Shown piece by piece: positions 2,843 to 53,864 of a DNA stretch of 64,000 bases. A program made the position numbers and the translations under genes. The stretch covers positions 1,612,001 through 1,676,000 of the forward strand of contig NZ_CP038157.1 in assembly GCF_007641235.1 (NCBI RefSeq). Direction: 5' to 3'. The DNA is from Corynebacterium sanguinis (GTDB taxonomy: Bacteria; Actinomycetota; Actinomycetes; Mycobacteriales; Mycobacteriaceae). How positions within the stretch are numbered: position 1 is the stretch's first letter; each line of letters opens with the position of its first letter. Under the pieces are notes generated by a model. That model worked only from the letters and a program-made list of their open reading frames with translations, had not been told where the DNA came from and did no database searches.

Positions 2843-2860
2843 GGTGCGTTGTGGGTCTCG

Positions 2861-3130
2861 TTGAGGTCCAGTTGCTATACCTCAGCGGTTTTCGTGTCAC
2901 ATGCGTAACAGGTGACCTGGGCTTTTGTGTGGGGCGGTGCGCTCAGGTCTAGTAGCTATACTTCAGCGGTGTGGGTGCCACACGCGTCACAGGTGTGCTG
3001 GGCTTTTGTGTGGAGCGGTGCGTTGAGGTCTAGTGGCCATACCCCAACGGTGTAGGTGCCACATGTGTAACAGGTGACCTGCGCTTTTCCGCAGCGCCAG
3101 GTGCTGAGGTCTAGCTCCTATACCTCAGCA
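2861..3130. repeat. 81-bp tandem repeat array, about 3.3 copies
   Basis: Three full units start at 2861, 2942 and 3023 and a partial one at 3104. The landmark AGGTC recurs at 2864, 2945, 3026 and 3107, an exact 81-bp period. Each unit begins with an inverted repeat of the form TGAGGT-(11 nt)-ACCTCA and later contains a GTCAC/GTGAC-like motif. The array fills the gap between hisI and the convergent small membrane gene. No reading frame or family is recognised in it. Confidence 0.85.
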
Positions 3131-12554: not shown

Positions 12555-14270
12555 ATGAGCTTCACAATGGACCGCGACAACTACACGGGACTCTACGGCC
12601 CGACGACCGGGGACTCCGTCCGTTTGGCGGATACCGACCTGTTCGCCACCGTCGAGCACGACTACACCACCTACGGCGAGGAAGCCACCTTCGGCGGCGG
12701 CAAGGTCATCCGCGACGGCATGGGGCAAAACTCCCGCCACGTGCGCGGTGACAACGTGCCCGATGTGGTAATCACCAACGTGCTGGTCATCGACTACACC
12801 GGCGTGTACAAGGCCGACGTCGCGGTGCGCGACGGCTACATCTCGCAGATCGGCAAGGCCGGCAACATGGACGTGATGGACGGTGTCGACATCACCATCG
12901 GCGTGGCCACCGACATCATCTCCGGCGAGGGCAAAATCCTCACCGCGGGCGGAATCGACACCCACATCCACTTCATCAGCCCGGACCAGATCCCCACCGC
13001 ACTCGCATCGGGGATCACCACCATGTTCGGCGGAGGCACCGGCCCGAGCGAATCCACCCGCGCCACAACGATCACCCCGGGCGAGTGGAACATCTTCAAC
13101 ATGCTGCGCTCCTTCGAGCACTACCCGATGAACTTCGGCATCCTCGGCAAAGGGCACGGTTCATCCGTCGCCCCGCTCGCAGAGCAGGTGCGCGCAGGTG
13201 CTGCGGGCCTGAAAGTTCATGAGGACTGGGGTGCGACACCGGCGTCGATCGATACCGCGCTCAAGGTCGCCGACGAGTTCGACATCCAGGTCGCCTTGCA
13301 CACCGATACCCTCAACGAGGCTGGCTTCGTGGAAAACACCCGAAACGCCATCGGGGGCCGCGTCATCCACACCTTCCACACCGAGGGCGCCGGCGGTGGG
13401 CATGCGCCGGACATCATCAAACTCGCTGGGGAATCCAACATCTTGCCGGCATCGACCAACCCGACGCTTCCATACACCGTCAACACCGTCGACGAGCACC
13501 TCGACATGCTCATGGTGTGCCACCACCTCAACCCCAACCTGCCGGAGGATGTTGCGTTTGCTGATTCGCGCATCCGTCCCGAGACGATCGCTGCGGAGGA
13601 CGTGCTGCACGACATGGGGATTTTCTCGATTACCTCCTCCGACTCCCAGGCGATGGGGCGCGTCGGCGAGGTCATCATCCGCACCTGGCAGGTCGCTGAT
13701 TCGATGAAGAAGCAGCGCGGCAAGCTCGCCGAGGACGAGGGAATCTTCGGCGACAACTTCCGCATCCGCCGCTACATTGCCAAGTACACGATTAACCCGG
13801 CCATCGCGCAAGGCATCGATGACTGGGTCGGTTCGGTCGAGGTGGGCAAATTCGCCGACCTCGTGCTGTGGGAGCCGCAGATGTTCGGCGTACGCCCCGA
13901 GTCCGTGATCAAGGGCGGCCAGGTCGTCTACACCGCACTCGGCGACCCCAACGCCTCGATCCCGACGCCCCAGCCGAACATGTACCGCGAATCCTTCGGC
14001 GCCCACGGGCTTGCGCTTTACCGCTCGTCGATCACGTTCATGTCCCAGGCCGCCATCGAGCGCGGCGTACCGGAGATCCTGCAGCTGCGCAAAAAGGTGC
14101 GCCCCGTCCACGGGATCAGGAACTTGACCAAGGCGGATTTGAAGCTCAACGACGCCACTCCCACGATCGCGGTGGACCCGGAGACCTACGAGGTCACGGT
14201 CGACGGCGAGCGGATCACCTGCGAGCCGGCGGCGACGGTCCCGCTGGCCCAGCGCTACATGCTGTTCTAG
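12555..14270 (+). CDS. ureC: Urease alpha subunit (catalytic)
   Basis: A 571-residue Ni enzyme hydrolysing urea to ammonia and carbamate. All nickel-site elements are seen: the His pair of THIHFISP, the carbamylated Lys in GLKVHEDWG, the His of [12 protein letters not shown], the His in [13 protein letters not shown], and the Asp of [13 protein letters not shown]. The mobile flap Cys-His is in MVCHHLNP. Length is normal for the family. An AGGAGG follows at the stop and serves ureE. Confidence 0.98.
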
Positions 14271-28324: not shown

Positions 28325-29905
<1,581 letters not shown>

Positions 29906-29954
29906 CCTCTTTGCTGGGGTGTGTCCCTGGTCGCTTGAGCGGCGGGGCCTGCTG

Positions 29955-30593
29955 TGGACTGCGCAGTTTGGCTCCGCGGGTTGTTTGCGACCAGGGGCTT
30001 TGCTGTCTCTGGTGGGTGGATTGCGCGGTTTAAACTGCGCGGATGCGTGGGGTGGGTCGGTTTTTGGGTCGGGCGCGGGCTTGGGTTCCTAGTCGTGGAT
30101 GGGCGGGGCCGACTGCGCAATGTGGACTGCGCAATTTAGCTGAGCGGGCCTGTTGCGACCAGGGACTTTGCTGACGCAAATTTACTAAATTGCGCAGTCC
30201 AAACTGCGCGGACGCGTTGCTGGCCGCCCGAGACCTACGGCAAGCGCGCCGGTGTTGTTTGTGGGGCGGGTGAGGGCTGTGTTCCTGGTCATGGATGGGC
30301 GGGGCCGACTGCGCAATGTGGACTGCGCAAACTAACTGAGCGGGCCTGCCGCGAACAGGGACTTTGCTGGTGCAGATTCGCTATATTGCGCAGTCCAAAC
30401 TGCGCGGACGTGTTGGGGCAACCTGAGACCTACGGCAAGCGCACCGTTGCTGCTTGTGGGGCGATCGAGACTCGTGTTCCTTGCCGCGTGCGCGGCGGAG
30501 CCGACTGCGCAATGGGCATTGCGCAATTTACCTGAGCGGCCTACCCACGAACAGGGACTTTGCTACTACAGATTCCCTAAATCGCGCAGTCCA
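29955..30593. repeat. Cluster A of a 78-80 bp palindromic element, four copies, 196-bp period
   Basis: Four elements lie at 29955-30032, 30123-30201, 30319-30397 and 30514-30593. Each runs from a left arm like TGGACTGCGCAATTTA to a right arm like TAAATTGCGCAGTCCA, able to form a 16-bp stem. The inner part keeps GCGACCAGGGACTTTGC or close variants, and AACYGCGC follows the right arm. The last three copies are spaced exactly 196 bp apart, and the DNA between them is also repeated. The 816-bp gap between gdhA and the next gene contains nothing else recognisable. Confidence 0.88.
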
Positions 30594-30721
30594 AACCGCG
30601 CACACGCGCACATCCACCCGGTCAACACGAACCACACCCGCTTAGACCCAACCAGCCGCGCCAACAAACCCCCGCGCGCCGAACCCGAGGCAGGCGCGCT
30701 GGCGCAGTACTCTAAAGCACT

Positions 30722-31528
30722 ATGTACCGCGTATTCGAAGCTCTCGATGAACTTGTCCAGACCGTGGAGCAGGCCTACGGCGTGCCGATGACTTCCAACT
30801 GCATGGTGCCGCGCAACGAGGTGCTCGCACTTCTTGACGACATCCGCAACGCTTACCCCGTCGAGATCGACGACGCCCAGGACGTGCTGGACAACCAGGA
30901 CGAGATCCTGCGCGGGGCCCAGGAGCGCGCCGACGCGATCGTCGGCAGCGCCGAGGCCGAGGCGCGCGAGATTATGTCCGACGTCCACACCCGCACTGAG
31001 GACATGCTTTCCGACGCCCAGTCGCGCGCGACCCTGCTCGTCGCCAACGCCGAGGAGGACGCGGAGCTGACCGTCACTCGCGCGCGCGAGGAGGCGGACT
31101 CGACCATCGCCGGCGCGCAGCGCGAGGCGGAGCGCCTGATCCAGAACGGCAACCAGGAGTACCAGCGCTCGGTTGAGCAGGGCCTGGCGGAGCAGGAGCG
31201 TCTGATCTCGGAATCAGAGGTCATGCGTCGCGCCGACGAAGAGGCGCACCGCCTGGTTGAGCAGGCGCACTCGGAATCCTCGCGCTTGCGCGCCGAGTGC
31301 GATAGCTACGTTGATTCGAAGCTCGCCGATTTCGAGGAATCACTTTCTTCTGTGTTGCGCACGGTCTCCTCTGACCGCTCCGCGCTCCGTCGCGGCGCCG
31401 GGGCTTCTGGAGCGGCTGGCGAGCGCTACGATCGCCCGCGCTCGGGCGAGCGGATTGAGCGCGTCGAGCGCCGCGAGCGGGTGCGCCGCCCGCGTAACGA
31501 CGGCTCCGGCTCGGAGCTCGATTACTAG
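30722..31528 (+). CDS. sepIVA: DivIVA-like septation protein SepIVA
   Basis: A 268-residue protein with a short N-terminal DivIVA-like part (MYRVFEALDELVQTVEQAYG) and a long Ala/Glu/Arg-rich coiled coil at about residues 55-220. A basic, Arg-rich tail follows. Position before DUF177, rnc and mutM matches mycobacterial SepIVA (Rv2927c), which acts in septation and envelope growth. TACTCT at 30708-30713 is 8 nt before the ATG, so it is probably leaderless. The assignment rests on synteny and coiled-coil character. Confidence 0.8.
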   Translation: MYRVFEALDELVQTVEQAYGVPMTSNCMVPRNEVLALLDDIRNAYPVEIDDAQDVLDNQDEILRGAQERADAIVGSAEAEAREIMSDVHTRTEDMLSDAQSRATLLVANAEEDAELTVTRAREEADSTIAGAQREAERLIQNGNQEYQRSVEQGLAEQERLISESEVMRRADEEAHRLVEQAHSESSRLRAECDSYVDSKLADFEESLSSVLRTVSSDRSALRRGAGASGAAGERYDRPRSGERIERVERRERVRRPRNDGSGSELDY

Positions 31529-53364: not shown

Positions 53365-53465
53365 GTGTGTAGGCGGTGGTCCTGTCTGCGCGTGTGTGGG
53401 GGTTTCCGCTGCTGTTGCGGGGTTCGCTGCTGATCCTGTCCGTGCGGGTGGGTTTGTGCGCGGTT

Positions 53466-53812
53466 TGGACTGCGCAATTTAAGTGGTTCGCCGTTTCGCG
53501 ACCTGGGGTTTTGCTTACGGTTCGTGGCTAATTGCGCAGTCTAAACTGCGCAGACCGCGGCCGGCATCCAAGCGCGTGGCCAAGACTCTCTCGCGCACTA
53601 TGGACTGCGTAATTTACGCGTCCCGCCAGAACGCGACCTGGGGTTTTGCCGACAGGGCGCGGCAAATTGCGCAGTCCAAACCACGCAGACCTTTGCCGGT
53701 GTCCAAGCCCGTGGCCGGGATTCCCCGCGCACTGTGGACTGCGCAATTTACGTATACCGCCATTACGCGACCTGGGATTTTTCCAACAACCCGCGCCAAA
53801 TTACGCAGTCCA
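53466..53812. repeat. Cluster B of the palindromic element, three copies, about 134-bp period
   Basis: Three 78-bp elements lie at 53466-53543, 53601-53678 and 53735-53812. They have the same arms as cluster A (TGGACTGCGCAATTTA and its complement on the right) and the shared inner motif GCGACCTGGG. AACYGCGC or a variant follows the right arm. The DNA between the elements differs from that in cluster A, so only the 78-80 bp unit is the common element. Apart from the rplS terminator, the 550-bp gap between rplS and lepB holds nothing else. Confidence 0.87.
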
Positions 53813-53864
53813 AACCGCGCTGCCTCCCACCGCCGCCCAAGGTCGCGCTGCTAAGGTGTTGCGG

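Follow-up and report, generated by a model that had tools for sequence, protein, structure and literature searches.

A dispersed repeat family of Corynebacterium and Coriobacteriia with a constant 17-bp core, exchangeable inverted arms and helical spacing

Introduction

RIB is the name given to inverted REP sequences placed around an IHF site. In BIME-1, IHF is described as binding the inter-REP sequence between two inverted REPs (PMC2817692). This is the closest known architecture to the repeat family reported here, which likewise has inverted arms around a central segment (protein-binding in BIME-1), is intergenic and multi-copy, and has tandem forms, as in BIME-2. The differences are that each REP arm is a palindrome that carries a GTAG-type head and has kinship to RAYT, whereas the arms of the present family are swapped wholesale; no GTAG-type head common to the arms was found when the printed arm sequences were inspected by eye. 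Helical-turn spacing and actinobacterial hosts also set the family apart from BIME-1/RIB. The asymmetric 17-mer at its centre is unlike the IHF consensus.

Correia elements measure about 100-150 bp and have one fixed arm family and a conserved body. The Correia repeat enclosed element of Neisseria carries inverted repeats and a conserved core able to bind IHF (PMC2649163). In the family described here, by contrast, only the core is constant. REPIN copies that are related share the whole element, middle included. A REPIN is a short non-autonomous element with two inverted arms (PMC3116915). The present family differs from it in having no Y1 transposase, no head motif that could be seen, a constant core and spacers that are unlike between copies.

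In C. diphtheriae, Cod-1 and Cod-5 are intergenic stem-loop families of 140 and 74 bp with tens of copies (PMC2267715). Compared by description, not by sequence, they may be members of the present family, in which case part of it would already have been tallied with its logic unrecognised; the portion of the description available to us gives no core, arm exchange or phasing. In lambda-type attP and in invertasome enhancers, a core and phased arm sites act in one nucleoprotein complex. These are single recombination sites, not dispersed repeats, and no recombinase was linked to the family studied here. A search of the PMC literature, whose coverage excludes subscription papers, found no description of such a core and arm family among the papers listed, and the core and arm strings occurred in PMC text only in papers unrelated by title and abstract start.

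Results

Palindromic elements in the window

The host is a Corynebacterium with a genome of 2.36 Mb in a single contig. The stretch under analysis (64 kb, referred to as the window) holds three clusters, A, B and C (Table 1). Four palindromic copies had been predicted in cluster A, and they are present far above chance: the arm TGGACTGCGCAATTTA has 15 matches in the window with up to 3 mismatches against 0.18 expected, and none of 100 shuffles reached 15. Cluster A is flanked by a glutamate dehydrogenase gene, which ends at 29905, and a gene for an ATP-synt_B/DivIVA-like product, which starts at 30722. Its copies 2 to 4 share a common 138-bp repeat at an exact spacing of 196 bp.

Table 1. Positions of elements and clusters in the window.
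Feature	Position	Strand	Inner-arm span or arms	Core	Remarks
A1, cluster A	29940..30047	+	29955-30032 (3' half degenerate)	29987-30003	degenerate; model score 66 bits
A2, cluster A	30108..30216	+	30123-30201 (arms 30123-30138 and 30186-30201)	30155-30171	best preserved; 107 bits
A3, cluster A	30304..30412	+	30319-30397	30351-30367	core with 1 mismatch
A4, cluster A	30500..30608	+	30515-30593	30547-30563	core with 2 mismatches
Cluster B, whole	53451-53827				between L19 and signal peptidase genes
B1, cluster B	53451..53558	+		53498-53514	arms as cluster A; after ribosomal protein L19 gene
B2, cluster B	53586..53693	+		53633-53649	
B3, cluster B	53720..53827	+		53767-53783	core with 1 mismatch; before signal peptidase gene
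Cluster C	2859..3130	+			other arms; period 81; between PRA-CH (hisI-type) gene and Trp_oprn_chp gene
Cluster C arms		+	2859-2887, 2940-2968, 3021-3049, 3102-3130		four palindromic arms like CGCTGAGGTCTAGTAGCTATACCTCAGCG
Cluster C cores		+		2912-2928, 2993-3009, 3074-3090 (decayed)	three cores amid four arms

These palindromes are a small part of something larger. The predicted length of 79 bp stands for the span of the inner arms; the whole element, with its outer boxes, takes about 106 bp. The middle between the arms, which had been called variable, varies in its spacers but contains a constant core. The conserved inner GCGACCAGGGACTTTGC of the original prediction is the part common to all arm classes.

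The core GCGACCWGGGRYTTTGC is asymmetric, 17 bp long and located between mirror-image arms. In class 1 (the arms of clusters A and B), the layout from outside in is a TGCGCA-like box, 14 bp, a second TGCGCA box (the arm as first noted), about 15-18 variable bases and the core. On the 3' side, the core is followed by about 14 variable bases and then by the mirror image of the arm boxes, so that element A2 reads outer box, inner arm, core, inner arm, outer box. The outer TGCGCA-like boxes are less well kept than the inner arms.

Class 1 comprises 16 elements in the genome. Fifteen of these were used to build a covariance model, and the sixteenth lies at 2138617. The 15 copies were aligned without gaps save for one extra base common to A2-A4; identity between copies was 79-81% in arms and core and about 40% in spacers. 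Arms were paired in 76.8% of cells against 76.2% after shuffling, and covariation was absent from the class-1 arms of the 15 copies (score 0.114 against 0.126 shuffled), which indicates that each arm is kept as a sequence and not as half of a stem. A lack of arm covariation across copies had been named as grounds against the original prediction: inside this genome covariation is indeed lacking, while between species both arms of a pair change together and still match. The edges of the core are sharp in 60 cores, with 1.1-2.0 bits inside (inflated, as the cores were picked by pattern) and at most 0.4 just outside.

The same model detected a second class, made of tandem arrays with a period of 85 bp, which has the arms TTGACCGTGACAT and their complement and the same core in a similar relative place. 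Arrays of 85-bp units number at least 11 in the genome; the 11 that were read contain between 4 and 11 cores apiece, and further core matches at 85-bp spacing occur, for example, near 99.9k and 459k. Cluster C represents a third arm class, and its cores deviate from the consensus, two of the three strongly. Over the whole genome, the core has 84 matches with up to 2 mismatches and 71 with up to 1, against 0 for the reversed control in both cases. The genome-wide arm search gave 22 matches with up to 2 mismatches and 0 in the reversed control, in support of the predicted dispersed intergenic inverted-repeat family.

Some further observations concern single sites. Inverted core-like words, GTGTCCCTGGTCGC and GTGTTCCTGGTC, precede the outer arm in cluster A (window 29920-29935 and 30278-30290), and such words lie outside the arms in another Corynebacterium too (L142, L144 and L225). 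A lone arm without core beside the element near 1694k (L086:2137-2153) is probably a truncated neighbour unit. Elsewhere in the window, the minus strand of 12707-12999 matched the 5' ureB sRNA of Rfam (RF02514; 96 bits, E 6.6e-24).

Core and arms across Corynebacterium

The core is abundant in part of Corynebacterium. With up to 1 mismatch, CGACCWGGGRYTTTGC was detected in 167 of 242 genomes, mostly with one to three matches, and the reversed control likewise gave one to three matches in many of the 242. At least 10 core sites were present in 14 genomes (counted by eye), against at most 6 for the reversed control (6 in G044). The richest genomes, with the control given second, were the host (71/0), G218 (65/1), C. 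lipophiloflavum DSM 44291 (G095; 36/2), G190 (35/0) and G158 (26/0). Throughout the genus, the exact pattern of arm and core was confined to the host genome and its close relative C. lipophiloflavum because the arms differ; the class-1 model and a search with the core alone were therefore needed. The model reached an E value of 0.01 or better in at least 55 of the 242 genomes (16 candidates scored per genome).

The core stays constant while whole sets of arms are replaced, both from class to class inside one genome and from species to species, as in GAGTGACAAAGGACGCAA, CACTATGCGATG, GTGACAATGTTGTGTTTTG, AAACGCCGATATCGGCGTTTA and GGTGTCGAGCCGTCGG. Matched inverted flanks with a score of at least 9 were found at 12 of 32 core sites of the genus (30 loci, one or two per genome), against 2.2% with swapped flanks. 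Clear arms were absent from the other 20 of the 32, which are probably chance cores or decayed. Six of the seven core sites read in G049 have one arm class and the seventh a variant, and all those read in G017 have another, common arm class. Repeated boxes of 14 bp were seen by eye in the arms of other species.

Occurrence beyond the genus

The exact core occurs in at least 120 stretches among named genomes. Inverted flanks with a score of at least 12 within 60 bp were present at 29 of 124 core sites (2 of the 124 viral) among the matches listed, a count for which no null was run. These 29 comprise 10 sites in Corynebacterium, 2 in Gordonia, 3 in Williamsia and 14 in Coriobacteriia, one of them in a MAG assigned by its arms. 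The layout in Williamsia is different, with arms that nearly touch the core. In a sample of 396 genomes of the phylum, the core was enriched in its own genus and in families f26, f40 and f19, which we take to be Coriobacteriia, and was near background elsewhere. A genome of another family, G465, had ten core matches (control 3), eight of which are the variant core GCCACCTGGGGTTTTGC. A phage origin was considered and rejected: the viral collection has the exact core in just 2 stretches, and neither shows clear inverted arms.

Two Eggerthellaceae were rich in cores, Enterorhabdus sp. P55 with 42 and Adlercreutzia faecimuris with 17, and two other Coriobacteriia genomes had 7 each; the control gave 0 for all four. 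Inverted arms with a score of at least 12 flanked 60 of 67 Coriobacteriia core sites, against 16% in a swapped null that is inflated by shared arm classes. The 67 were drawn from 73 matches, the rest being at contig ends or outside the fetched loci. Within one arm class of P55 and A. faecimuris, arm variants were matched within the element in 88% of cases against 60% when shuffled (seven variable columns; 0 of 2000 shuffles). In a crude ORF test, 40 of 62 Coriobacteriia sites lay between co-directional, 15 between convergent and 7 between divergent frames, with no apparent promoter-side preference.

The core, flanked by GCAAGCCACC arms, also occurs inside a dispersed unit of about 400 bp, whose sharp ends lie near CAACTCAT and at GAGTGGGAGTAG. 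This unit was located at L206:5344-5743, with relatives in L148, L165, L216, L226, L227, L229, L232 and L251, and is common to Collinsella, Olsenella, Slackia, Atopobium, Ellagibacter, Senegalimassilia and Arcanobacterium haemolyticum. When 841 ORFs of the L139-L258 loci were compared all-against-all, the 25 largest clusters contained no recurrent neighbour gene linkable to the element beyond the Collinsella group, and the comparison found no trans-acting protein.

Distances between arms and core

Arm and core are separated by distances that rise in steps of about 10.5 bp, even though the spacers are near random in sequence. The commonest arm of P55, searched without the core, gave 73 matches against 0, which form 36 inverted pairs and one single. 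Read by eye, 13 pairs are spaced 126-127 bp and 23 pairs 136-139 bp, with none between. A looser arm pattern, applied to loci of P55 and A. faecimuris, gave 32 pairs with spacings of 126 (1 pair), 127 (12), 131 (1), 137 (7), 138 (10) and 139 bp (1). Nine of these were reached by the arm alone, and in seven of the nine a phased position is taken by a core with 2 to 6 mismatches. A recognisable core was absent from 2 of the 32 pairs, both among the nine, and some other cores were decayed.

The positions of the core relative to the 5' and 3' arms were 54/31, 64-65/31 or 54/41-42, with one exception (48/41) among 23 elements. This out-of-phase element belongs to the TGACGAC class (d5 = 48), and its pair spacing was 131 in the looser search. 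In nine elements of the TTTGGTA class, d5 was 25, 35, 36, 46, 46, 46, 56, 56 and 57, and d3 was 33, 33, 43, 43, 44, 44, 54, 54 and 54. The test covered 42 of the 67 Coriobacteriia sites, the other 25 being without exact anchor words or arms, and its distances are not fully independent, as elements may share descent. When spacers of the same length were compared in P55 and A. faecimuris, identity was 32-35%, against 27-30% after shuffling.

Similar steps were observed in Corynebacterium G010, where the motif GAKCCGT lies 17/18, 28, 38/39, 59/60 and 80/82 bp before the core and its complement 14, 25, 46 and 68 bp after it (also at 5 in three sites). The steps equal one or two helical turns, and the motif is present in 9 of 12 distinct sites. 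At some sites of this genome, the arm motifs recur at intervals of 21-22 bp to the left and right of the core. Whole-turn lengths combined with nearly random spacer sequence suggest that selection acts on the geometry of the double helix.

Comparison with C. lipophiloflavum

The element is present in both genomes at all nine sites compared between the host and C. lipophiloflavum, namely clusters A, B and C, the loci near 874k, 1449k, 1565k, 1694k and 2138k, and the array near 1409k; host sites near 318k, 365k and 401k and most arrays lie outside this comparison. Copy numbers in tandem differ, with 4 copies in the host against 5 in cluster A and 3 against 1 in both B and C, which bears out the predicted growth by tandem duplication. 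The array near 1409k is about 420 bp (some five units) shorter in C. lipophiloflavum.

One class-1 element of C. lipophiloflavum (L103:1521-1628) has no counterpart in the host, and its right flank is unmatched in the host genome. No core with up to 3 mismatches was found at the corresponding place. Homology stops about 90 bp before the element, which marks DNA that was rearranged or lost; this is no clean empty site. The case indicates that the sites of the element are not wholly stable. In P55 and A. faecimuris, one class of 32 elements gave no target-site duplication signal, as direct-repeat length was 5.56 compared with 5.29 (sd 0.19). Copy number changes by tandem duplication, and spread to new sites looks old or rare.

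Search for Y1 transposase genes

The original prediction had assigned the elements to REPINs, with a RAYT/Y1 gene flanked by the same arms to be expected. No Y1_Tnp gene was present in the 12 core-richest Corynebacterium genomes (at least 12 cores each, host included), nor in G591, which has 18 core matches, and the assignment failed on this count. Three of the four Coriobacteriia genomes tested contain four Y1 genes between them, which sit between their own, different palindromes. None of the four loci has a core with up to 3 mismatches within about 1.5 kb; the arm search gave one match with 6 mismatches at one locus of the four, and no Y1 gene flanked by the arms of the element was seen in the four loci read. 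The Y1_Tnp frames at these loci (L421, L422, L423 and L424) are of 265-316 aa and lie amid inverted or palindromic repeats of their own, such as TGGCATAAAAGGGGAC. They are apparently true REP/RAYT-type units.

Discussion

The family combines a constant core with matched, exchangeable arms, a helical register to which one exception was found, tandem growth and mostly shared sites. Helical-turn distances over near-random spacers point to a nucleoprotein complex on double-stranded DNA, not to RNA or a single-stranded hairpin, and we regard a double-strand complex as very probable. Taken as a whole, the reading that this short non-coding chromosomal family serves as protein-DNA assembly sites on intact double-stranded DNA is the one we favour with moderate confidence. 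One conserved, perhaps DNA-bending, protein would read the core, and a putative fast-evolving protein, dimeric or oligomeric, would read the arms. An actinobacterial IHF was considered as a candidate reader of the core. A bend at the core would let the two arm-bound complexes meet. Only spacings that hold core and arms on one face of the helix would then survive.

An alternative is that the elements are MITEs, whose arms are ends mobilised by transposases or recombinases of several specificities and whose core is an internal accessory or enhancer site. Such an origin would fit the dispersed copies, the patchy occurrence and the presence of several arm classes in one genome, as well as the sharp-ended dispersed unit of about 400 bp that carries the core in Collinsella and relatives. 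The C. lipophiloflavum element with no counterpart at the corresponding place in the host also fits, though homology there breaks off before the element. Against mobility of this kind are the missing target-site duplication signal and the presence of the element in both genomes at the nine compared sites. Recent copies would have common spacers, and the spacers here differ. Moreover, the commonest P55 arm forms 36 pairs, every one of them short and none with a gene inside, as read in a draft assembly with one arm unpaired. We consider the MITE explanation unlikely, with some weight left to it.

A centromere-like or nucleoid-organising role would make the elements iteron sites: a partition-type protein would bind them, and their form would be that of a central segment with an iteron block on either side. 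In G010, the arm motifs that recur at 21-22 bp to the left and right of some cores would suit such blocks, as would the 14-bp boxes seen by eye in the arms of other species and the positions kept between sister species at the nine compared sites; the resemblance to plasmid partition sites is one that we assume. The many loci per genome and the arms that differ by species argue the other way, and no cognate gene is known. This explanation appears doubtful.

The elements might instead encode a structured RNA, such as an antitoxin RNA of Abi/AbiF type, an RNase III substrate or a terminator. Coriobacteriia stems are near-perfect and matched within elements, and Collinsella copies adjoin an Abi_2 gene. 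That neighbour proved a false lead: 242 Corynebacterium genomes were searched for Abi_2, and among the best 30 loci examined the core was found beside the gene at one with up to 1 mismatch and at one more with 2 mismatches. Helical-turn spacing over near-random spacers and class-1 arms without covariation are not expected of an RNA, and no element in the window or in 16 loci matched Rfam at gathering scores. We judge an RNA very unlikely. Mobilisation as a REPIN by a RAYT (Y1) transposase would account for two inverted arms flanking a middle in intergenic, multi-copy elements, yet it is hardly credible given the Y1 results above, the constant core, the lack of a GTAG-type head in arms inspected by eye and related copies without a common middle (class-1 spacers about 40% identical).

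We return to assembly sites for proteins on double-stranded DNA. Whether such sites would be of service to the cell, as in loop or domain organisation of the RIB kind, or to the element, as a transposition or recombination complex, is close to even; we lean slightly to the element type, with co-evolving recognition. More tentatively, and at somewhat less than even confidence, the family may be a selfish or architectural actinobacterial element of a new kind. In such an element, a conserved protein would read the 17-bp core, and each lineage would devise its arms anew, along with a reader for them, all in helical register. The partner of the core would stay fixed across two distant classes while arm and reader co-diversify.

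For the classification of intergenic palindromes, the case is a caution that shape alone is not sufficient to file them as REPINs. The family would be an actinobacterial counterpart to REP/BIME elements without RAYT. Whole-turn spacing around a constant centre suggests a protein machine, of which we found no description, and makes a dispersed repeat readable as such a machine, with a constant site, exchangeable arms and a strict register. The model predicts at least two DNA-binding activities, for which a single synthetic DNA could serve as bait. Should the arms co-evolve with a protein that changes fast, the many species of Corynebacterium and Eggerthellaceae would amount to a natural experiment in which DNA recognition shifts and its partner remains fixed.
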